Source of the DNA: Deltaproteobacteria bacterium
GTDB lineage: Bacteria; Myxococcota; Myxococcia; Myxococcales; Anaeromyxobacteraceae
NCBI GenBank assembly: GCA_016214955.1
Contig: JACRMN010000011.1
Coordinates: forward strand, 123,897-187,896
Reading direction: 5' to 3'
Length of the DNA stretch: 64,000 nucleotides
The translations under genes were made by a program, and so were the position numbers. Below are positions 39,456 through 52,018 of this stretch, piece by piece; the first letter of the stretch is position 1, and each line of letters opens with the position of its first letter. The notes below the pieces were generated by a model that was given only the letters and a program-made list of their open reading frames with translations, was not told where the DNA came from and did no database searches.

Positions 39456-40280
39456 CTACCGCGCCGGCTCGGCGGCGACGATGCCGGTGCCGGTGAGCCG
39501 CAGGTCGTTCCCCTGCACGCGCCCGAGGAGGCGCAGGAGCCCGTCGAGGATGGTGACGGGGTGGGGCGGGCAGCCGGGGATGAACAGGTCCACCGGCACG
39601 CCGTCGATGGCGCCCACCGCCCCGTCGCGGCAGACCGGGCTGCCGGCGAAGGGCCCGCCGGAGATGGCGCAGGCGCCCACGGCGATGAGCAGGCGCGGCG
39701 CCGGGGTGGCCTCCCATGTCTTGCGCAGGCCGGTGAGCATGTTCTCCGACACCGGCCCGGTGACCACCACGCCGTCGGCGTGGCGCGGCGAGGCCACGAA
39801 CTGCACGCCGAAGCGGCCCAGGTCGAACTGCACGTTGCCGGTGGCGTTGAGTTCCGCCTCGCAGCCGTTGCAGCCGGCCGCCGAAACCTGGCGCAGCTTG
39901 AGCGAGCGCCCGAAGACCCGCTGCATCTCGGCGCCGAGCGCCTGGGCCAGCAGCGGCACGTCGCCCCGCGCCACCAGCTCCTCCCGGGTCCGCGCCGCGA
40001 GCCGGTAGTCGCGGCCGAAGGCGATGGCGCCCTCGGGGCAGGCCTCCTGGCAGAGTCCGCAGAAGAGGCAGCGGCCCAGGTCGATGGAGAGGTCGCTCGT
40101 CCCGGCGCCCCCCACCGCCTCGGTGGGGCAGACGGCGGCGCACTCGGCGCAGCCCGCCTTGCAGCGGGCGGCGTCGAGCGCCGGCCGGCCGCGGAAGCGC
40201 TCGGGGAAACGGGCCGGCCCGTCGGGGTAGGCGATGGTCTGGCTGCCGAGCCGCAGCCGGGTGCGCAGGATGGAGATCAT
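39456..40280 (-). CDS. Ehr/Hyf-type small subunit: 2x[4Fe-4S] ferredoxin fused to NuoB-like domain
   Basis: Electron-transfer subunit of the membrane complex encoded upstream. Residues about 35-100 hold two ferredoxin clusters (ARCKAGCAECAAVCP and CLFCGLCQEACPEG). The NuoB/HycG-like domain follows with all four ligands of its [4Fe-4S] cluster: CNGCEAELNA, VGACAISGG and PGCPPHPVTI. In Hyf/Hyc complexes these are separate HycF- and HycG-type proteins; here they are one 274-residue chain. ATG at 40280 is about 40 bases after the large-subunit stop. It is the last gene of the seven-gene operon. Confidence 0.88.
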   Translation of the reverse strand: MISILRTRLRLGSQTIAYPDGPARFPERFRGRPALDAARCKAGCAECAAVCPTEAVGGAGTSDLSIDLGRCLFCGLCQEACPEGAIAFGRDYRLAARTREELVARGDVPLLAQALGAEMQRVFGRSLKLRQVSAAGCNGCEAELNATGNVQFDLGRFGVQFVASPRHADGVVVTGPVSENMLTGLRKTWEATPAPRLLIAVGACAISGGPFAGSPVCRDGAVGAIDGVPVDLFIPGCPPHPVTILDGLLRLLGRVQGNDLRLTGTGIVAAEPAR

Positions 40281-40320
40281 CGGCTCGCTCCGTGAGGCCC
40301 CGGCCGCCGCGAGGAGGGAT

Positions 40321-41841
40321 TCATAGGTCGTACCCGCAGTAGGAGAGGTTGAAGCTCTTGTTGCAGAGCGGGAAGTCGCTGATCTGCTCGCCGCGGAGCG
40401 CCAGCTGCAGCCCCATCCAGTTGTGGAAGGAGGGGTCCTTCAGCTTGTAGCGGGCGAAGCGGCCGTCGGCGCCGGTGGTGACGGCGTGCACCAGCTCGCC
40501 GCGCCACCCCTCCACCAGCGACACCGCCAGCCTGCCCGGGCGCGGCGCCGGGCAGGGGGCGCGCACCGGCCCCTCCGGCAGCTGGCGAAGCACCTGCACG
40601 ACGAAGGCGGCGCTGGCCCGGGCCTCGTCGAAGCGGATCCGGGCCCGGGCGTGGACGTCGCCGGCCTCGAGCGTGACCATCGGCAGGGTGGCGCTCGAGT
40701 AGGGCTCGAAGGGGTGGGTCTTGCGGGCGTCGACCTGCAGGCCGCTGGCGCGGCCGGCCGGCCCCAGCAGGCCCAGCGCCTGGGCGGTCTCCTTGGGGAC
40801 CACGCCGGTGCCGTCGACGCGGTTGCGGGAGGAGGGGCTGTCGAAGAAGAGCCCGGCCGCGTCCTCCACCCTGGAGAAGGCCTCCTCCATGCGCCCGGCC
40901 AGGCGGGCCGCGGCGTCGGACGGCAGGTCGAAGCGGACGCCGCCCGGCACCACCAGCCCGCGGCCGAAGCGGTTGCCGCAGATCTCGGCCAGGGCGTTGA
41001 GGAAGTCGGCGCGCAGCGCCCCGCAGTAGCTGGCGGTGGGCAGGAAGCCGATGTCGGTGGCCAGGGCGCCGAGGTCGCCGACGTGGTTGGCGAGCCGCTC
41101 CAGCTCCAGCGCCACCGCCCGCAGCGCGGCGGCGCGGGGCGGCACCTCCACGCCCGCCAGCCCCTCCATGGCGCGGGCGTGGCAGAGGGCGTTGCCCACC
41201 GCGGTGTCGCCGGCGACGGACTCGAGCAGCGAGACGGTGCGCGCCGTCGGGCCGCCCACCAGCATGCCCTCGGCGCCGCGGTGCTGGTAGCCGAGGACGA
41301 TCTCCAGGTGGAAGACGTGCTCGCCGTGGCACTGGAAGCGGAAGTGGCCCGGCTCGATGATGCCGGCGTGCACCGGCCCCACGGCCACCTCGTGCACCTC
41401 CTCCCCCTCCATGGCGAAGAAGGGGTAGCCGCCGGGGATGTCGGCCCGCGGCCCCTCCCGCCCGAAGGCGTCGGGCCCGGCGCCGCCGAGCCGGTGCTCG
41501 AAGCGCACCGGCTTGGGCCACGGATGTCCGCGCGGCACCACCCCGTACTGCTCGGCCAGCTCCCGCTCGAAGAGCTGCACGGCCGGGCACTCGGGGGCGA
41601 GGGAGGGCCACTCCTTCGTCACCGGCGCCGAGAGCAGGCCCAGCGTCCCCTCGCGGTCGTTGGGCAGCACCGCGGTGACGAGGAGCTCCCCTGCCTCCTC
41701 GCGGCCGTAGAGCGCGGCCACCCGGCCGCCGGCGGTGACCACGTCGGCCACCAGCCCCTGGAGGTCGTCGACCGAGAGGCGCGGCACCGCCCGGGCCTCG
41801 ACCGCCTCGCCGTTCTTCACCTGGAGGATGCGCGAGGACAT
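40321..41841 (-). CDS. HycE/HyfG-like large subunit lacking the NiFe cysteines
   Basis: 506 residues: a NuoC-like N-terminal domain (to about 125, ending in FERELAEQYGVVPRGHPWPK) fused to a NuoD/hydrogenase-large domain (HFRFQCHGEHVFHLEIVLGY, HRGAEGML). At the place of the N-terminal CGxCxxxH NiFe motif it reads ESVAGDTAVGN (about residues 205-215), and the C-terminus ends NLSYCGYDL rather than DPCxxC. All of the CxxC pairs for the metal centre are missing, so it is not a hydrogenase; this is the signature of energy-converting-hydrogenase-related (Ehr) complexes. It directly follows the NuoN-like gene (3-base gap). Confidence 0.88.
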   Translation of the reverse strand: MSSRILQVKNGEAVEARAVPRLSVDDLQGLVADVVTAGGRVAALYGREEAGELLVTAVLPNDREGTLGLLSAPVTKEWPSLAPECPAVQLFERELAEQYGVVPRGHPWPKPVRFEHRLGGAGPDAFGREGPRADIPGGYPFFAMEGEEVHEVAVGPVHAGIIEPGHFRFQCHGEHVFHLEIVLGYQHRGAEGMLVGGPTARTVSLLESVAGDTAVGNALCHARAMEGLAGVEVPPRAAALRAVALELERLANHVGDLGALATDIGFLPTASYCGALRADFLNALAEICGNRFGRGLVVPGGVRFDLPSDAAARLAGRMEEAFSRVEDAAGLFFDSPSSRNRVDGTGVVPKETAQALGLLGPAGRASGLQVDARKTHPFEPYSSATLPMVTLEAGDVHARARIRFDEARASAAFVVQVLRQLPEGPVRAPCPAPRPGRLAVSLVEGWRGELVHAVTTGADGRFARYKLKDPSFHNWMGLQLALRGEQISDFPLCNKSFNLSYCGYDL

Positions 41842-41844
41842 GGG

Positions 41845-43272
41845 CTAGCCCCCCACCAGCGACGCCGCGGCGTCGAAGAGCCCCAGGAGCCCGCGGGGCA
41901 CCCACAGGCCGAGGAGCAGCACCAGCGCCATCAGGGCCAGCGGCGGCCCGGCGGTGAGCGGCGAGTCGGCCAGCTCCGGAGGGGCGCGGCCGCCCGGGGC
42001 CTTGCCCTGCACCACCCGCAGGACCGTGGCCCCCATGCCCACGAAGATCACCGAGAGGAAGACGAGGAACAGCCCCGCCGCCCAGAAGTGGCCGCCGCGG
42101 ATGGCCCCGTTGAGGATGCTGAGCTCCGAGAAGAACGGGGCGAAGGGCGGCGAGCCGGTCACCGCCAGGAAGCCGGCCAGGAAGAGCGGGCCGGAGATGG
42201 GCAGCCGCTCGGCGGCGCCGCTCACCTTGTCCACGGTCTTGGCGCCGAAGGCCCGGTGGATGTTGCCGGCCGCCAGGAAGAGCACGCCCTTCACCAGGCC
42301 GTTGGCCACCATGTGGAAGAAGGCGCCCGAGGCGGCGGCGCCGCCCAGCCCCAGGCCCAGCGAGAGGATGCCCATGTGCTCGACGCTGGAGTAGGCCAGC
42401 ATGCGCTTCAGGTCGCGCTGCCCCACCATGAACACCGCCGCCAGCGCCATGGAGAGCAGGCCGATGGCCACCAGGCTGTCGGCGGCGAAGGCCCGCTCGC
42501 CGGCGGCGTTGCAGACGTGCAGCACCCGGACGATGGCCAGGAAGGCCAGGTTGGTGACGCCGCCCGAGAGGATGGCGCCCAGCAGGCCGGGGGCCTCGCC
42601 GTAGGCGTCGGGCTTCCACGAGTGGAGGGGGGCCAGGCCCATCTTGGTGCCGTAGCCCACCAGCAGGAAGACGAAGGCGGCGCGCACCCAGGGGCGCGAG
42701 AGAGACGGGCCGGCGGAGGCCAGGTCGCGCACCAGCAGCGAGTGCGGGCCGCCGGGCCCGGCCGAGGCCAGCGCCAGGAAGAAGGTGCCGAGGAGCGCCA
42801 GCGCGATGCCCAGCGAGCACACGAGCAGGTACTTCCAGGCCGCCTCGAGGGAGAGGGCGTTGTGGTTGAAGTAGATGAGGGGCGCGGTGGTGAGGGTGGT
42901 GATCTCGATGGCCACCCAGAGCAGGCCCAGGTGCTGCGAGATCGCCACCACCGTCATGGCCGAGAGCAGCACCAGCAGGCCGCCGACGAAGACCCGGTTG
43001 TCGCGGTCGGCGCGGCGCGCCAGGTAGCCCTGGGCGTAGACGGCGCAGACGAGGAACAGGGTGCTGGTGGTGCCGAGCACCAGCTTGCCGGGGGCGTCGA
43101 GCAGCAGCCAGCCGGAGAGGGCCGGAGCCGGCGGCTGGATCCAGGTGACCACCACCAGCAGCGCGTGGAGCGAGGCCCCGGCCAGCAGGGCCAGCGGCCG
43201 GCGCCGCTGGTCGGGGAGGGTGAAGGCGAGGGCCGCGAAGAGGAGAGGCGAGAGGGCCAGGAGGAGGAGCAC
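41845..43272 (-). CDS. HyfF/NuoN-like proton-translocating membrane subunit
   Basis: A 475-residue antiporter-like subunit with about 13-14 membrane helices. Channel residues typical of the family are present: WVAIEITTLTTAPLIYFN (Glu), GYGTKMGLAPLHSWKPDAYGEAPGLL (Lys and His), YSSVEHMGI and NGLVKGVLFLAAGNIHRAFG (Lys). This arrangement matches HyfF/MrpD-type proteins rather than the longer NuoL. It lies between the HyfE- and HyfG-like genes, with 3-base gaps on both sides. Confidence 0.88.
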   Translation of the reverse strand: MLLLLALSPLLFAALAFTLPDQRRRPLALLAGASLHALLVVVTWIQPPAPALSGWLLLDAPGKLVLGTTSTLFLVCAVYAQGYLARRADRDNRVFVGGLLVLLSAMTVVAISQHLGLLWVAIEITTLTTAPLIYFNHNALSLEAAWKYLLVCSLGIALALLGTFFLALASAGPGGPHSLLVRDLASAGPSLSRPWVRAAFVFLLVGYGTKMGLAPLHSWKPDAYGEAPGLLGAILSGGVTNLAFLAIVRVLHVCNAAGERAFAADSLVAIGLLSMALAAVFMVGQRDLKRMLAYSSVEHMGILSLGLGLGGAAASGAFFHMVANGLVKGVLFLAAGNIHRAFGAKTVDKVSGAAERLPISGPLFLAGFLAVTGSPPFAPFFSELSILNGAIRGGHFWAAGLFLVFLSVIFVGMGATVLRVVQGKAPGGRAPPELADSPLTAGPPLALMALVLLLGLWVPRGLLGLFDAAASLVGG

Positions 43273-43275
43273 GCG

Positions 43276-43923
43276 TCAGTCCTTCAGGGCCGAGAGCTTG
43301 GCGGTGTCGAGCGAGGCGAACTCGCGGTTGATGTGGAACATGACGATGCCCATGACGAAGACGGCGGCGAAGAGGTCGAGGAGCACGCCGGCCTCCACCA
43401 TCACCGGCATGAAGTCGCTGAGGAGGACGCCGAAGACGAAGACCCCGTTCTCCAGCACCAGGAAGCCCAGCACCTGGGCCACCGCCTTGCGACGCGAGAC
43501 CACCAGCAGGAGGCCGGTCCAGACGGTGGCCAGCGAGGTGGGCACCAGCAGCGGGTGCTTCTCGGGCGTGGGCAGCGGCAGGCCGCCGGAGAACGCGAAG
43601 GCCAGCGCCACCCCCACCGCCCCCAGCACCATCGAGGGCACGAAGCCGACGATGGGCTCCACCTCGCGCCGCACGGCGGCCTCGCGGATGGCCCAGCCCA
43701 TCATCAGCGGGATGGCGATGCCCTTCACCAGGAGCGCGCCCAGCGCCAGGGCCACGACGTGGGCGGTCTGGTGCTCGCCGGTGGCCAGCAGCACCGGCAG
43801 GAGCGAGAGCAGCGCCCCCTGCGCCGCCACCGCCCGGATGGCGGCGCCCAGGCGCGAGGAGGCCAGCGCGAAGAAGTCGATGACCACCACCAGGATGAAG
43901 ACGGTATCGGTCCAGCGGGACAT
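43276..43923 (-). CDS. HyfE-like membrane subunit
   Basis: A 215-residue, very hydrophobic protein with about six helices (VFILVVVIDFFALASSRLG, ALLSLLPVLLATG, MVLGAVGVALAFAFSGGL, LLDLFAAVFVMGIVMFHINR). It corresponds to HyfE, which combines features of NuoK and NuoJ-type small subunits. ATG at 43923 is given; GTG at 43932 overlaps the upstream stop as GTGA and is an equally good start nine bases earlier. Fifth-last gene of the complex operon. Confidence 0.8.
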   Translation of the reverse strand: MSRWTDTVFILVVVIDFFALASSRLGAAIRAVAAQGALLSLLPVLLATGEHQTAHVVALALGALLVKGIAIPLMMGWAIREAAVRREVEPIVGFVPSMVLGAVGVALAFAFSGGLPLPTPEKHPLLVPTSLATVWTGLLLVVSRRKAVAQVLGFLVLENGVFVFGVLLSDFMPVMVEAGVLLDLFAAVFVMGIVMFHINREFASLDTAKLSALKD

Positions 43924-43928
43924 GGCAT

Positions 43929-44837
43929 TCACCGGAGCAGGAGGACGAGGGCGAAGACCGAGAGCACCGAGGCGCCCACCAGCATCTGCGGCACCCGGGA
44001 GAGGCGGAGGCGGGCCATCACCGACTCGACGGTGCCCACCACCACCGCGAAGACCAGCATGCCGCCCAGGAAGGCCAGCAGCGCCGCCCAGGGGCTGTCG
44101 AAGTGGAAGCCCAGCGCCAGCCGCACCACCAGGGCCCCGAAGAGGAAGAGCTTGAGCGCCGCGCCGTAGAGGATGAAGGCGAAGTCGGGGCCGGAGTGAT
44201 CGAGCACCATCACCTCGTGGATCATGGTGAGCTCGAGGTGGGTGTTGGGGTCGTCCACCGGGATGCGGGCGTTCTCGGCCAGCGCCACCACGAAGAGCGC
44301 CAGCGCGGTGAGCAGCAGCGCCGGGCCGGAGGTGGACCAGGCGCTGCCCAGCCCCTCGCCCAGCATCTGCGAGAGCGAGAGGGCGCCGGTGGCCCGGGCC
44401 AGCACCACCAGGCACAGGAACAGCGCCGGCTCGGCCAGGGAGGCGAAGCTCACCTCGCGAGCCGCGCCCATGCCCTCGAAGGCGGAGCCGGTGTCGAGGG
44501 CGGCCAGCGCCGTGAAGAAGCGGGCCAGGCCCAGCAGGTAGGCGAAGAGGACGAAGTCGCCGCTGAAGGAGAGCATCGCCGGGGCGCCGCCGAAGGAGAG
44601 CAGCAGGCCGGCGGTGGCCACCGCTGCCAGGCCCACCACCGGGCCGGCGCGGAACACCCAGGTGGTGGTGGTGCTGTAGACCGCCCCCTTGTGCAGGAGC
44701 CGCCACAGGTCGAAGTAGGGCTGCAGCAGCGGCTGGCCGGTGCGGCCGGCCACGCGGGCCTTGACCCGGTTGATCACGCCGAGCAGGAACGGCGGCAGCG
44801 AGAGGAAGAGCAGGAGCTGGATGGCGGAGAGGAGCAT
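43929..44837 (-). CDS. HyfC/NuoH-like membrane-anchor subunit
   Basis: A 302-residue protein with about eight helices, homologous to NuoH/HyfC/EchB, the subunit that joins the hydrophilic arm to the membrane. Seen: INRVKARVAGRTGQPLLQPY near the N-terminus, GAVYSTTTTWVFRAGP, LDTGSAFEGMGAAREVSFAS, and the acidic loop ENARIPVDDPNTHLELTMIH characteristic of the family. ATG at 44837 is given; GTG at 44846 overlaps the upstream stop as GTGA, the same arrangement as in the next gene. Confidence 0.9.
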   Translation of the reverse strand: MLLSAIQLLLFLSLPPFLLGVINRVKARVAGRTGQPLLQPYFDLWRLLHKGAVYSTTTTWVFRAGPVVGLAAVATAGLLLSFGGAPAMLSFSGDFVLFAYLLGLARFFTALAALDTGSAFEGMGAAREVSFASLAEPALFLCLVVLARATGALSLSQMLGEGLGSAWSTSGPALLLTALALFVVALAENARIPVDDPNTHLELTMIHEVMVLDHSGPDFAFILYGAALKLFLFGALVVRLALGFHFDSPWAALLAFLGGMLVFAVVVGTVESVMARLRLSRVPQMLVGASVLSVFALVLLLR

Positions 44838-44842
44838 GCCGT

Positions 44843-46843
44843 TCACCCGGAGGCGTAGAGCCAGGCCAGCAGGCCGATGAGGCCGCAGAGGAGGAGCAGC
44901 GCCTGGAACTGCACCCGGCCGCCCACCAGGGCGGCGCGGGAGAAGCCGGCCAGGCGGGCCAGCGAGCCCAGGGCCGGGAGGATGCCGACGTCGAGGACGG
45001 TGTCCGGCACCGAGGAGGAGAAGGCGGCGCGCCGCGGGAAGAGGCCGGCGGGAGGGATCACCCGGGCGCGCGGGAAGAAGACCCAGCCGAAGCGAATGAC
45101 GAGTGCCTCGGCCAGCGAGGAGCCGGTGTACTGCATCCGCGGGGTGGGGGCGGTGAAGCCGCAGCCCCAGGTCTCGGCGGCCGGCTGCCGCGCGCCCAGG
45201 CTGCGCCGGCGCCAGAGCACCAGCACCGCCACCAGGAGGAGCAGCACCGCCGCCACCGCGCTGAGCCGCGCCGCCGAGCGCGCCGCCTCGGCCGCCGGTG
45301 CCGCCAGCGCCGCCTCCGGCAGGCGTGCCCACTGGGCCGCGGCCCGGGTCAGGGAGGGGATGACCAGCGCCGGGAGCAGGCCGATGGCGAAGCAGACGGC
45401 GGCCAGCGCCGCCATGGGCGCCAGCATGCTGGGCGGAGGCTCGTGCCCCAGCGCGGCGTGGGGCGAGCGGCCGTTGCCCAGGAAGACCGCCCCCACCACC
45501 TTGGCGAAGCAGGCCGCCGCCAGGCCGCCGATGAGCGCCAGCACCGGTACGCCCAGCGCCGCGGCGTGCGGGTGGGGCAGGGCGCCGAGGTCGAAGGCGG
45601 TGCGCACCGAGGCGAGCGCCACCAGCCACTCGGAGACGAAGCCGTTGAGGGGCGGCAGGCCGCTGATGGCGGCGGCGCCCACCAGGAAGAGCGCGGCGGT
45701 GCGGGGCATGGCGCGGGCCAGGCCGCCCAGGTGATCGAGGTCGCGGGTCTGCGTGGCGTGGACCACGGCGCCGGCGCCGAGGAAGAGGAGCGCCTTGAAG
45801 GTGGCGTGGTTCACGGTGTGGAGCACGGCGCCGGACAGGCCCAGGAGCACCAGCGCGCCGTCGCCCCGGGCCCGCCCGAGCAGCGCCAGGCCCGCGCCCA
45901 TGGCGATGATCCCCACGTTCTCCACCGAGTGGTAGGCGAGGAGCCGCTTGAGGTCGTGCTGCGCCAGCGCGAAGGCCACGCCCAGCACGCCCGAGACCGC
46001 ACCGACGGTGAAGAGCGCCATGCCCCAGGAGGCCGGCGGCGCCTCGAAGAAGCCGGTGACCCGCAGGAGGCCGTAGACGCCGGTCTTGAGCAGCACGCCC
46101 GACATCAGCGCCGAGACGTGGCTGGGCGCGGCGGCGTGGGCGCCGGGCAGCCAGAAGTGGAGCGGCATGAGGCCGGCCTTGAGGCCGAAGCCGCCCAGCG
46201 CCAGGCCGAAGAGCCACGGGGCCGCCGGGGTCGTGGCCGCCAGCCCGGCCATGCGGGCGAAGTCCCAGGAGCCGGCCTCGCGGGCCAGGAGCACGAAGAG
46301 GGCGAAGAGGGCCAGGTTCCCCACGTGCGCCGAGGCCAGGTAGACGAAGGCCGCCCGCTGCGCCTCCGGCTCCTCGTGGTCGGTGAGCACCAGCAGGAAG
46401 GCGGCCAGCGCCATCACCTCCCAGGCCAGCAGGAAGAGGATGGCGTTGGCGGCCATGCACACCAGCGCCATCGAGCCGGTGACGAGGCCGAACCAGATCT
46501 GGAGCCGCACCGCCCGGGCGCCGTGCCGGGCCTGCGGGAAGTAGCCCAGGCCGTAGACGGCGCCCGCCGCCGGGACGCCGAGCACCGGGAAGAGGAACAG
46601 GGCGGAGAGGGCGTCGAGCCGGACGGCGAAGCGGGCGAAGGGGGCCTGCCAGCCGACGTCGAGCGACGGCGGCACAGGCGAGGCCAGCGCCATCCCGGCG
46701 CCGGCCATGCCCAGGAGCGCGCCGAGGACCAGCGCGCCGGCGGCCAGCCGCTGGGCCCGATCCGGCTGCCGGCGGAAGGCGACGGACAGCGCCCCGCTCG
46801 AGGCGGTGAGGAGGACCGCCGCGATGGCGAGGGCCAGGCTCAT
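44843..46843 (-). CDS. HyfB/NuoL-like antiporter subunit, copy 1
   Basis: A 666-residue polytopic protein of the NuoL/HyfB family. Proton-channel motifs: LLAWEVMALAAFLLV (Glu), GLKAGLMPLHFWLPGAHAAA (Lys), AYHSVENVGIIAMG, and HATFKALLFLGAGAVVHATQ (Lys), followed by SGLPPLNGFVSEWLV. The C-terminal part carries WGCGFTAPTPRMQYTGSSLA, a segment found in HyfB-type but not NuoL proteins. ATG at 46843 overlaps the stop of the preceding homologue (ATGA). Confidence 0.9.
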   Translation of the reverse strand: MSLALAIAAVLLTASSGALSVAFRRQPDRAQRLAAGALVLGALLGMAGAGMALASPVPPSLDVGWQAPFARFAVRLDALSALFLFPVLGVPAAGAVYGLGYFPQARHGARAVRLQIWFGLVTGSMALVCMAANAILFLLAWEVMALAAFLLVLTDHEEPEAQRAAFVYLASAHVGNLALFALFVLLAREAGSWDFARMAGLAATTPAAPWLFGLALGGFGLKAGLMPLHFWLPGAHAAAPSHVSALMSGVLLKTGVYGLLRVTGFFEAPPASWGMALFTVGAVSGVLGVAFALAQHDLKRLLAYHSVENVGIIAMGAGLALLGRARGDGALVLLGLSGAVLHTVNHATFKALLFLGAGAVVHATQTRDLDHLGGLARAMPRTAALFLVGAAAISGLPPLNGFVSEWLVALASVRTAFDLGALPHPHAAALGVPVLALIGGLAAACFAKVVGAVFLGNGRSPHAALGHEPPPSMLAPMAALAAVCFAIGLLPALVIPSLTRAAAQWARLPEAALAAPAAEAARSAARLSAVAAVLLLLVAVLVLWRRRSLGARQPAAETWGCGFTAPTPRMQYTGSSLAEALVIRFGWVFFPRARVIPPAGLFPRRAAFSSSVPDTVLDVGILPALGSLARLAGFSRAALVGGRVQFQALLLLCGLIGLLAWLYASG

Positions 46844-48843
46844 GGCCGCCGCACCACCAGGTAGAGGGCCAGCGCCAGCAGCGTCACCACGGTGTAGAGG
46901 AGCTGGAGGTGGAGCCGCCCGGTCTGCAGCCGGCGCAGGGCCTGGAAGCGGGCACCGGCCGCCTCGAAGAGTGGGTCGAAGATGCGGCGGCGCGCCGGAT
47001 CCTCCCGGACCGAGGCCAGCGAGGAGCGCCCGGGGAAGAGGCCGCGCGGCAGCACCACCCGGGAGCGCGGCGCCAGCAGCCGCGGCACCAGGCCCGAGAG
47101 CAGGAGCTGCGCATAGGAGGAGCCGGTGTACTGCATCCGCGCCGTCGGGCCGGTGAAGCCGCAGCCCCAGGTCTCGGAGCGGGCCGGCGGCCGGGCCCCC
47201 AGCAGCCGGGAGCGCCAGGCCCAGAGCAGCGCAGCGGTGGCGCCGAGGCCCAGGGCCACCGCCCGCACCGGCAGCGCCAGCTCCCGGGTCGGGCCCTGCA
47301 GCAGGCCGCGCAGCGCCTCGACCGGCTGACGGGCCACGGCGGCGATGGCCGGCGCCGCCAGCGCCAGCGCCTCGGCCGGGAAGAGGGCCAGCCCCACGCA
47401 GCCGGCGCCGAGGAGCGCCATCGGGAGCCAGCTCGACGGCCCGGGCTCCTGGGCGTGGGCGGCGCCGGCGCTGCGCGGCGAGCCCAGCAGGGCCAGCCCG
47501 GCGAGGCGGGTGAAGGCCACGGCGGCCACGGCGCCCACGAGCGCCAGGGCGGCCAGCGCCAGGGTGGCGGCCAGCGGCGTTGCCGAGATCGGGGAGCGGG
47601 CCGCCTCGAGGAGGCCCAGGTAGAGCAGCCACTCGGAGACGAAGGCGTTGAGGGGCGGCAGCGCCGAGAGGGCCACCGCCGCCAGGAGGAAGAGGCCGGC
47701 GGTGCGCGGCAGGCGCGAGAGCAGCCCGCCCATCTGCTCGATGTCGCGGGTGTGGGCGGCGTGCGCCAGCGAGCCGGCGCCGAGGAAGGCGAGCCCCTTC
47801 ATCAGGGCGTGGTTCCAGACGTGGAGGAGCGCGCCGCCGAACGAGAGGGCGGCGCCCAGCGCGGAGCCCTGGGCCGCTGCCGCCAGGCCGAGCCCGATGC
47901 CCAGCAGCACGATCCCCATGTTCTCCACGCTGGAGTAGGCCAGCGCCCGCTTCACGTCCGACTGGCCCAGCGCCAGCACGATGGCCGCGAAGGCGCCCAC
48001 CGCGCCCAGCGCCGCCAGCAGCACGCCCCAGGCGAACGGCGCCGGCGGCAGGAAGGAGAGGGTGCGCAGCAGCCCGTAGACGCCCACCTTGATCATGGCG
48101 CCCGAGAGCAGCGCCGAGACGTGGCTGGGCGCGGCCGGGTGTGCCTCGGGCAGCCAGACGTGCAGCGGCACCACGCCGGCCTTGGTGCCGAAGCCGACCA
48201 GCGCCAGGCCGAACAGCAGCGTGGCCGGGAGCCCGGCCTTGCCGGCCAGCAGCTGGAAGGCCTCGAAGTCGAGGGCGCCGGCCTCGCGCCCCAGCATCAG
48301 GAAGAGGAAGAAGAGGAAGGCGGTGCCGAGGTGGGAGGCCACCAGGTAGGTGAGGCCGGCGCGGCGCACCTCGGGGTCGTGGTGGTCGAAGACCACCAGC
48401 AGGAAGGAGGTGAGCGCCATCACCTCCCAGGCCACCAGGAAGAGCACCGCCTGCCGGGCCGCCAGCACCAGCGCGATGGAGGCCAGCAGCAGGTTGTAGA
48501 AGAGCAGGAAGGGGCCCAGCGGGCGGCCGGCCGCCGCCTTCTTCATGTAGCCGTGGCCGAAGAGCGAGGCCGGCAGCGCCAGCGCGAAGAGCGCCACGAG
48601 GAAGAAGGCCGAGAGCGGGTCGAGACCGAGCCGCACCGCTGCCAGCGGGGCGCTCCAGGAGGCCTGGAGCGCGGCGGGCGGCCCCAGCCACAGGGCCCGG
48701 ACCGCGGCGGTGAGCCCCAGCAGGCTGCCGAGGGCGGCGCTGCCGGTGCCGAGGAGGAGCGCGGTGGCGCTCTGCCGGTTGCTGAGGAGGGCCGCGAATC
48801 CGCCTGCGACCAGGATGCCGAGTGCGAGGAGAAAGAGGGACAC
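46840..48843 (-). CDS. HyfB/NuoL-like antiporter subunit, copy 2
   Basis: A 667-residue paralogue of the next gene, with the same motif order: LVAWEVMALTSFLLVV, GTKAGVVPLHVWLPEAHPAA, AYSSVENMGIVLLG, NHALMKGLAFLGAGSLAHAA, ALPPLNAFVSEWLL and WGCGFTGPTARMQYTGSSYA. Having two HyfB-type subunits in tandem, besides the HyfF-type one, gives the complex three potential proton channels. Start GTG at 48843. First gene of the complex operon; the FHA-GAF gene lies 63 bases upstream on the same strand and could be co-transcribed. Confidence 0.9.
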   Translation of the reverse strand: MSLFLLALGILVAGGFAALLSNRQSATALLLGTGSAALGSLLGLTAAVRALWLGPPAALQASWSAPLAAVRLGLDPLSAFFLVALFALALPASLFGHGYMKKAAAGRPLGPFLLFYNLLLASIALVLAARQAVLFLVAWEVMALTSFLLVVFDHHDPEVRRAGLTYLVASHLGTAFLFFLFLMLGREAGALDFEAFQLLAGKAGLPATLLFGLALVGFGTKAGVVPLHVWLPEAHPAAPSHVSALLSGAMIKVGVYGLLRTLSFLPPAPFAWGVLLAALGAVGAFAAIVLALGQSDVKRALAYSSVENMGIVLLGIGLGLAAAAQGSALGAALSFGGALLHVWNHALMKGLAFLGAGSLAHAAHTRDIEQMGGLLSRLPRTAGLFLLAAVALSALPPLNAFVSEWLLYLGLLEAARSPISATPLAATLALAALALVGAVAAVAFTRLAGLALLGSPRSAGAAHAQEPGPSSWLPMALLGAGCVGLALFPAEALALAAPAIAAVARQPVEALRGLLQGPTRELALPVRAVALGLGATAALLWAWRSRLLGARPPARSETWGCGFTGPTARMQYTGSSYAQLLLSGLVPRLLAPRSRVVLPRGLFPGRSSLASVREDPARRRIFDPLFEAAGARFQALRRLQTGRLHLQLLYTVVTLLALALYLVVRRP

Positions 48844-48906: not shown

Positions 48907-50463
48907 TCAGCGGGGCGCGGCGACCAGCCGCCTGGCGCCGGCCCGGCCCGGGGGCCCCAGCTCGAAGCCCGGGCCCGCCCTCTGCGCCATCTGCGGGCCG
49001 GCCATCACCTGCCCGCGCTCGGCGCTGGCGGCAAGCCGCAGCGCCGCCTCCACCGCCGCGCCCACGGCGCGGAGCTCGGGCCGCTCGACCTCGCCGAAGT
49101 TGCCCGCCAGCACCGGCCCCACCTCGACGCCGGCACACAGCCCGAGCCGCGGCTCCGGCCGCTCGGCCTCCAGCGCCGTCACCCGGTCGCGCACCGCAGC
49201 GGCGCAGCGCAGCGCCCGCTCGCCCGCCTGCGGGTCGGTGTGCAGCAGCCCGAACACCGCCACCACGCCGCCCGTCATGCGCACGTCCACCGCCGCCCCC
49301 TCCTCGAGGAGCAGGGCGCGCACCGCCTCCTGCGCCGCCAGCACCCGGGCGGCCACCTCGTCGGGCGGCCGCGCCGCCACCAGCGCCGCCAGGTCGACGA
49401 GCGCCACCCCCAGCACCGCCGCCTCGGAGCGCAGCCCCGGGGCCAGGAGGTCGCGGTCGGCGTCGAGCCCCACCAGCGCAGCGGTGGCCCCGGGCGCCAG
49501 GTGGCGCAGGAGCCGCTGCTTCTGCTCGTCGGCGGCGCGGGTGCGGTCGGCGAGGCGGGCCCGGTCCACCGCCATGGCGGCCTGGAAGCCCACCAGCGTG
49601 GCCAGCTCCAGGTCCTCGGCGGTGAAGGGCTCGGTGTAGCTGCGGTCGAGGAGCAGCGCGCCGAGGATGCGGTTCTCCGCCCAGATGGGCGCGCACATGC
49701 AGGAGCGGATGCCCTGGGAGATGACCGACTGGCTCTGGGAGAAGCGCTGGTCCTGCTGGGCGTCGAAGGTGAGGATGCCGGCCCGGGCCCTCAGCGCCGC
49801 CTGCACCACCGTGGCGCTGACCCGCGGCTCGGCGCCGGCCGGCTCCACCGCGTGCGGCACCATCTCGCCGCGCTCGTCGAGGAGCAGGACGCTGGCCGCC
49901 TCGGCGCCCACCGAGGCCGAGAGGGTGCGGAGGATGAGCCGCAGCGTCTCGTCGAGCGAGGTGTTGGAGGTGGAGATTCGCCCGATCTCGTTGATGACCT
50001 GGATCTGGCGGCGGGCCGAGACGGTGATGTCGCTGGGGCCGCGCCGCGGCATGGGGAGCACCACGCCGGGGCGCTCGGAGGGCGCCGCCGCCGGCTGCTG
50101 CCGGCCCACCAGGTCGGCCAGGTAGCGGATGACGGTGCTCTCGCCCTGGATGATGGCCCGCGGCTCGGCCACCTCCCCGCCGGCGCGCAGCTCGGCCTCC
50201 GTCTTGCCGAAGCGCAGCCGCATGCCGGCGCGCACCGAGGTCTCGTGGACGCGCTCGCCGTCCACGAAGGTGCCGTTGCGGCTGTCGAGGTCCACCACCC
50301 ACAGGTCGCCGCCGCGCCGCTCGAAGAGCGCGTGCATCGAGCTGATCCAGGGATCGGCGATCTGGACGTGGCACTCGGCCGAGCGGCCGACGACGGTGGG
50401 CACGTCGGGGAGGAAGTACACCGTCCCGCCGCAGATCCCGTTCACCACGAACAGCTCGGCCAA
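48907..50463 (-). CDS. FHA-GAF-adenylate-cyclase-like signalling protein
   Basis: 518 residues in three parts. FHA domain about 5-95 (VVGRSAECHVQIADPWISSM, LDSRNGTFVDGERV), which binds phosphothreonine. GAF domain about 155-310 (DETLRLILRTLSASVGAEAA, SCMCAPIWAENRILGALLLD). A class III nucleotide-cyclase-like domain about 340-505: VALVDLAALVAARP keeps one metal Asp, but the second Asp of the usual GDGxxAxFG motif is Gly (TGGVVAVFG, near 398), so catalysis is doubtful. Start is TTG at 50463. It is divergent from a Ser/Thr kinase, a plausible source of the phosphothreonine read by FHA. Confidence 0.85.
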   Translation of the reverse strand: MAELFVVNGICGGTVYFLPDVPTVVGRSAECHVQIADPWISSMHALFERRGGDLWVVDLDSRNGTFVDGERVHETSVRAGMRLRFGKTEAELRAGGEVAEPRAIIQGESTVIRYLADLVGRQQPAAAPSERPGVVLPMPRRGPSDITVSARRQIQVINEIGRISTSNTSLDETLRLILRTLSASVGAEAASVLLLDERGEMVPHAVEPAGAEPRVSATVVQAALRARAGILTFDAQQDQRFSQSQSVISQGIRSCMCAPIWAENRILGALLLDRSYTEPFTAEDLELATLVGFQAAMAVDRARLADRTRAADEQKQRLLRHLAPGATAALVGLDADRDLLAPGLRSEAAVLGVALVDLAALVAARPPDEVAARVLAAQEAVRALLLEEGAAVDVRMTGGVVAVFGLLHTDPQAGERALRCAAAVRDRVTALEAERPEPRLGLCAGVEVGPVLAGNFGEVERPELRAVGAAVEAALRLAASAERGQVMAGPQMAQRAGPGFELGPPGRAGARRLVAAPR

Positions 50464-50474
50464 GTTCGTTCCCC

Positions 50475-50516
50475 GAATTGGGTGCTGCGCCGGAGGGATG
50501 ATAGCCTATCCAATTC
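50475..50516. promoter_or_regulatory. Inverted repeat GAATTGG-N28-CCAATTC in the divergent intergenic region
   Basis: The 7-bp arms lie at 50475-50481 and 50510-50516, each exactly 11 bases from the start codon of its gene (TTG at 50463 reverse, ATG at 50528 forward). A smaller GATAG-C-CTATC palindrome sits at 50500-50510. It may hold paired promoter elements or an operator for the FHA-GAF gene and the kinase gene. Confidence 0.45.
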
Positions 50517-50527
50517 TGGAGCGGCGG

Positions 50528-52018
<1,491 letters not shown>

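Follow-up and report, generated by a model that had tools for sequence, protein, structure and literature searches.

An Ehr-type membrane complex with an emptied NiFe pocket and two HyfB genes in the Anaeromyxobacteraceae

What might a membrane complex do that is built like a hydrogenase but lacks the residues that would hold a NiFe centre, and why should it carry two versions of one of its pump subunits? The question is posed by seven genes within the window (the whole stretch of 64,000 nucleotides analysed here, from a member of the family Anaeromyxobacteraceae). The reading we prefer, at a rough probability of 55%, is that they encode a ferredoxin-fed, ion-translocating oxidoreductase with a soluble acceptor and alternative HyfB subunits. 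Complexes of this type occur in anaerobes and facultative anaerobes by the hundred, and the window's operon is not in itself unusual. The interest lies rather in the limits that can be set on their reaction, in the alternatives for HyfB, and in an operon partner with HTH and EIIA domains.

The operon and its family

As the initial annotation described them, the genes run in reverse orientation and encode HyfB, HyfB, HyfC, HyfE, HyfF, HyfG and a ferredoxin-NuoB fusion, here called EhrS (Table 1). They share one strand of a 5.3-Mb genome and are closely packed, neighbours overlapping or lying apart by 4 to 40 bases; the G+C content of the window is 74%. Pfam and NCBIfam domains in the operon are Proton_antipo_M (three times), NADHdh, and Oxidored_q2/HyfE, with Complex1_49kDa and 30kDa in HyfG and Fer4 and Oxidored_q6 in EhrS.

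Table 1. Genes of the Ehr operon and the gene upstream of it (positions within the window)
Feature	Position	Strand	Length (aa)	Remarks
HyfB1	46840..48843	-	667	C-terminal ND3-like loop (W559, C561) and lateral helix
HyfB2	44843..46843	-	666	Full-length, own intact ND3-like loop; ATGA overlap with HyfB1
HyfC, NuoH-like membrane anchor	43929..44837	-	302	
HyfE, NuoK-like region	43276..43923	-	215	
HyfF, third antiporter-like subunit	41845..43272	-	475	Without ND3-like extension
HyfG/EhrL large subunit, NuoC-D like	40321..41841	-	506	NiFe ligands absent
EhrS, fusion of 2x[4Fe-4S] ferredoxin domain and NuoB-like domain	39456..40280	-	274	
FHA-GAF signalling protein, directly upstream of HyfB1	48907..50463	-		Probably no subunit

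The FHA-GAF gene adjoins Ehr in much of the family, and in the window a divergent gene for a Ser/Thr kinase (50129-52018) lies beside it.

The Ehr family has been defined as relatives of group 4 hydrogenases without ligands for Ni and Fe (PMC6349859). The window's operon has the subunits of a group 4 hydrogenase-like complex, antiporter-like ones included, and its large subunit is devoid of Ni- and Fe-coordinating residues. By its predicted proteins, the seven-gene complex is a member of this known family, as had been proposed from the first; within the complex I superfamily it falls in the FHL/Hyf-like branch. Orthologues of HyfG occur in all 24 of the 24 genomes of the Anaeromyxobacteraceae, which excludes the operon as a product of chance. 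Beyond the family, scanning a single genome from each species gave at least 573 relatives in many phyla, those listed coming from Geobacteraceae, Planctomycetota, Verrucomicrobiota, Acidobacteriota, Spirochaetota, Elusimicrobiota, Omnitrophota and others. The core order HyfB-C-E-F-G-I is constant nearly everywhere among these loci. No relative was found when viral contigs were searched with HyfG. Several genomes of the family also carry a second, divergent Ehr operon, whose HyfG is about 45% identical to the main one; in three of them (G003, G004 and G023, loci L046 to L048) it lies beside the main operon in divergent orientation.

Among the closest described parallels is the Ehr cluster of Geobacter sulfurreducens (GSU0739-0745), which likewise has seven genes, encoding EhrA-1, EhrC, EhrL and EhrS among its subunits, and where the name EhrA-1 already implies a state with two HyfBs (PMC7894505). 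Like the window's operon it combines HyfB/NuoL-like and HyfE-like subunits with a large and a small subunit; the G. sulfurreducens genome has no Ech hydrogenase. The Hyc and Hyf complexes of Escherichia coli (formate hydrogenlyase, or FHL, and hydrogenase-4) are homologous subunit by subunit, down to the ND3-like loop at the C-terminus of HyfB, but in the window's complex the NiFe ligands and HyfD are missing, a second HyfB is present instead, and the ferredoxin domain is fused to the small subunit. The fold of the large subunit and the membrane modules are shared with respiratory complex I (NuoB/D/H/L/M/N), from which the complex differs in having no NuoEFG genes within its operon. Finally, MBS and MBX-type complexes of Pyrococcus are likewise complex I-like, without NiFe, and fed by ferredoxin, as the window's complex presumably is.

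The former NiFe pocket and its possible substrate

In group 4 [NiFe] hydrogenases the metal is held by two CxxC motifs, CGxCxxxH and DPCxxC. Neither is present in HyfG. In place of the first stands ESVAGDTAVGN (residues 207-217), in place of the second the C-terminus reads NKSFNLSYCGYDL, and the chain offers no other CxxC pair as a substitute, so the loss noted in the initial annotation survives a search for the NiFe cysteines elsewhere in the protein. Aligned to E. coli HycE, the four cysteines correspond to A210, T213, S500 and G503. All 98 of the HyfG homologues compared lack the full set: a single one has a cysteine at position 210, and none has one at 213, 500 or 503.

What took the place of the ligands is itself conserved. 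The pocket motifs GPVHAGIIEPGHFRFQC (155-171), E(S/T)xAGDT (207-213) and CNKSFNLSYCGxDL (493-506) are retained, and GPxHAGxIEPGHFRFxC, G211-D212 and the C-terminal SDFPxCNKSFNLSYxGxDL are invariant or nearly so among the 98 homologues. Evidently, the site has lost its NiFe ligands but is not decaying. The AlphaFold2 model of HyfG (pLDDT 87, though with the pocket loops 155-163 and 492-506 at low confidence in a model made without partners) finds its nearest solved fold in HycE of E. coli FHL (Z 39.2), with complex I at about 34.8.

Three residues with known roles in related proteins bear on the chemistry of the pocket: H38 and Y87 of Nqo4, which bind the quinone head-group in complex I, and E21 of MbhL, a glutamate that delivers protons in a hydrogenase (PMC7684303). 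The two quinone residues align with I162 and G211 of HyfG, both invariant in 98 of 98 homologues, so the complex I head-group residues are absent. E21 aligns with E163, also invariant. We infer from this pattern that the site is conserved and proton-coupled, and that it serves another substrate.

The small subunit, in turn, has kept the means to bring electrons in. EhrS has two ferredoxin motifs, C40-x3-C44-x2-C47-x3-C51P and C71-x2-C74-x2-C77-x3-C81P, and the NuoB-type cysteines C137, C140, C204 and C237; with all eight and all four retained, the electron-entry clusters are as intact as first supposed. The first motif (residues 40-51) is spaced CxxxCxxCxxxCP rather than CxxCxxCxxxCP, and its first three cysteines are conserved in 86-89% of homologues.

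Put together, these features suggest the following course. The donor would be soluble and of low potential, most probably reduced ferredoxin. Its electrons would enter the fused ferredoxin domain of EhrS and, to judge from the intact cysteine motifs, move on to the proximal cluster of NuoB type. They would then serve, in the former NiFe pocket of HyfG, to reduce a substrate other than protons at a NiFe centre, and as a rule other than quinone. The redox step would drive the translocation of ions through HyfC and the antiporter-like subunits, as homology and the invariant charged residues suggest, while HyfB1 and HyfB2 would most likely compete for a single place next to HyfC, giving two versions of the complex. 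The donor, the direction, the ion, the acceptor and the alternative assembly are all ones that we infer.

One might expect the donor and acceptor to leave traces in the genomes that carry Ehr. The sample consisted of 37 such genomes, most of them metagenome assemblies and possibly incomplete. Ferredoxin as donor is consistent with the presence of POR, a ferredoxin reducer, in 37 of 37, although this is weak support, since the enzyme is near-universal in anaerobes. Rnf was found in 12 of 37, with no clear pattern. HypD, which is needed for making NiFe centres, is absent from 12, the isolates Geothrix paludis and Rectinema subterraneum among them. Menaquinone synthesis was detected in 17 (MqnA/D in 14, MenD above the cut-off in 3). 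The other 20 divide into five with a full-length CydA, which may therefore use quinone, and 15 without. R. subterraneum lacks all of these: HypD, MqnA/D, MenD and full-length CydA. Since many of the genomes are metagenome assemblies, any single absence is weak, and it is the isolates and the overall pattern that carry the argument. With Ehr present in some genomes without HypD and without menaquinone synthesis, neither H2 nor quinone can be its universal acceptor; the acceptor must exist even where an organism makes no menaquinone and no NiFe centres.

Menaquinone is the acceptor that deserves the most consideration after a soluble one. A complex I-like ferredoxin:menaquinone oxidoreductase would fit the NuoD-like fold of HyfG, the use of quinone by relatives in complex I, and the presence of menaquinone synthesis in Geobacter, Geothrix and the window's own genome (which also encodes HypD and, at another place, a NiFe hydrogenase). 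Because that genome makes menaquinone, a quinone acceptor is possible in the window's organism. On the whole we think it unlikely, given that invariant residues of another kind have replaced the quinone ligands of Nqo4 and that 15 of 37 genomes have neither detectable menaquinone synthesis nor full-length CydA.

Perhaps formate, rather than ferredoxin, supplies the electrons. A soluble formate dehydrogenase partnered with Ehr has been proposed for Margulisbacteria (PMC6349859), and the Ehr subunits of G. sulfurreducens reach higher levels with formate than with hydrogen (PMC7894505). In about 100 loci, however, no family of formate dehydrogenases recurs beside the operon, and such a partnership seems to us quite unlikely.

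The complex might also be a sulfane or polysulfide reductase like the MBS of Pyrococcus, in which an open proximal [4Fe-4S] cluster would be the catalytic site. NiFe ligands and quinone residues are lost in both complexes, and among solved structures HyfF is closest to MbsH. We nonetheless regard this as very improbable. In MBS a shortened CxxC loop leaves the proximal cluster with three cysteines, and the counterpart of MbhL E21 has been lost (PMC7684303), whereas Ehr has four cysteines and E163: EhrS aligns without gaps to MbhJ across the loop, which is not shortened as in MbsJ. Equivalents of C85 and C385 are missing as well. That the complex has remained a hydrogenase, with a metal site of an unusual kind, is hardly credible: its overall resemblance to FHL and the residual conserved cysteines of HyfG (C171, C288, C493) are outweighed by the absence of a CxxC pair and by the retention of Ehr in genomes without HypD, two isolates among them.

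Two HyfB subunits

The duplicate HyfB had been taken as an extra proton channel. This is unsupported, in that both copies carry an ND3-like loop suited to a single site, and relatives keep just one of them. HyfB1 and HyfB2 are about 44% identical; the channel residues E140, K221, K252, K349 and E404 are kept in both, and the loop residues W559, C561 and Y572 in 110 of 110 HyfB sequences. The nearest solved fold to HyfB1 is HycC of FHL (Z 49.6). In FHL, the loop and the HyfB homologue lie directly at the junction with the homologues of HyfC and HyfG (PMC9474812), and in MBS only one of the two antiporter subunits has such a loop (PMC7684303). With one place to share, two loop-bearing HyfBs should be in competition unless one of them is displaced. 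Within the family, two relatives (G012, G013) retain copy 1 only and a third (G022) copy 2 only.

Could HyfB1, HyfB2 and HyfF nevertheless sit in one complex, as three antiporter modules that move more ions per electron pair? The two HyfB genes are adjacent and co-oriented in the window, second HyfBs have arisen several times, and the full set of channel residues in both copies would suit such an assembly. Its module count would be comparable with that of FHL-2, which also has three antiporter-like subunits, HyfB, HyfD and HyfF (PMC7384014), and the second loop could be displaced, with the extra HyfB stacking distally. Against this stand the intact loops in both copies for one junction and the sufficiency of either copy in relatives. 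Moreover, the more antiporter modules there are, the longer the lateral helix (PMC9474812). The HyfB tail after the loop cysteine has much the same length in two-copy genomes (109 and 104 residues) and in one-copy genomes (106), and HyfB1 is predicted to have a short lateral helix of about 19 residues (616-634). In Geobacter argillaceus, furthermore, the second HyfB forms a divergent unit with an EIIA gene of its own. A three-module complex thus appears to us a minority prospect. Because both HyfBs keep the single-site loop and relatives live with either copy, alternative, interchangeable subunits would be the better reading than an additive third pump, and the duplicate HyfB would be recast from an added pump into a case of interchangeable pump subunits. 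This reading leans on the architecture of the superfamily, as a search for a structure of an Ehr complex found none.

The tandem might have been a recent duplication, a possibility rejected by a tree of 110 HyfB sequences, in which the copies fall in different deep lineages: HyfB1 groups with copy 1 of loci from Zixibacteria, Planctomycetota, Myxococcota and Desulfobulbus, and HyfB2 lies elsewhere. Homologous operons with two HyfBs occur at four loci in Geobacteraceae and their relatives (L073, L077 to L079). The Geobacter HyfBs are sister lineages from a duplication of their own, and the window's pair is older. The Verrucomicrobiota/Desulfomicrobium pairs go back to a further separate duplication, and the tree forces at least four changes in all, the counts being approximate since the pairs at four loci (L033, L034, L048, L105) come from two operons.

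An HTH-EIIA partner and other neighbours

Outside the window's genus, most Ehr operons start with a gene that combines HTH_17 with a PTS EIIA type 2 domain. Upstream sequence was sufficient at 69 loci in many phyla, and at 45 of them such a gene adjoins a HyfB, usually immediately in front of it and co-oriented with the Ehr operon (L037-L043, L053-L130). The encoded proteins have an invariant histidine, resembling a phospho-acceptor, in GIAIPHxR. Of 40 genomes, 25 have strong full-length matches, 24 of them with the gene next to a HyfB. Among openly searchable papers, none was found that links Ehr with PTS EIIA. The relatives in Geobacter keep the gene, but it has been lost in the window's genome: the genus as a whole is without it, and elsewhere in the genome there is only a plain PtsN-like domain. 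So conserved a partner could lead to the physiological signal to which the complex responds. A wider proposal, which we offer as speculative and rather doubtful, is that, next to proton reduction at NiFe and quinone reduction, Ehr may give the complex I superfamily a third chemistry, in which a strictly conserved, proton-coupled pocket reduces a soluble metabolite. HyfBs would alternate in its membrane arm, and in most lineages a dedicated HTH-EIIA(Ntr) phosphorelay protein from the same operon would control its expression or assembly.

Other neighbours recur more locally. On inspection of the sequences, a gene for a SulP-type transporter lies a few kb from Ehr at five loci in unrelated phyla (L035, L056, L058, L081, L108), and a gene resembling glutamate dehydrogenase is found at or near the end of the operon in Holophagaceae (L104, L121, L127). 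Lastly, the genome has a pair of oppositely oriented NuoD-like genes separated by about 3.4 kb (L136; G000:C5:134703-139905). Most genomes of the family show the same arrangement, which suggests that two gene sets of complex I type adjoin each other.
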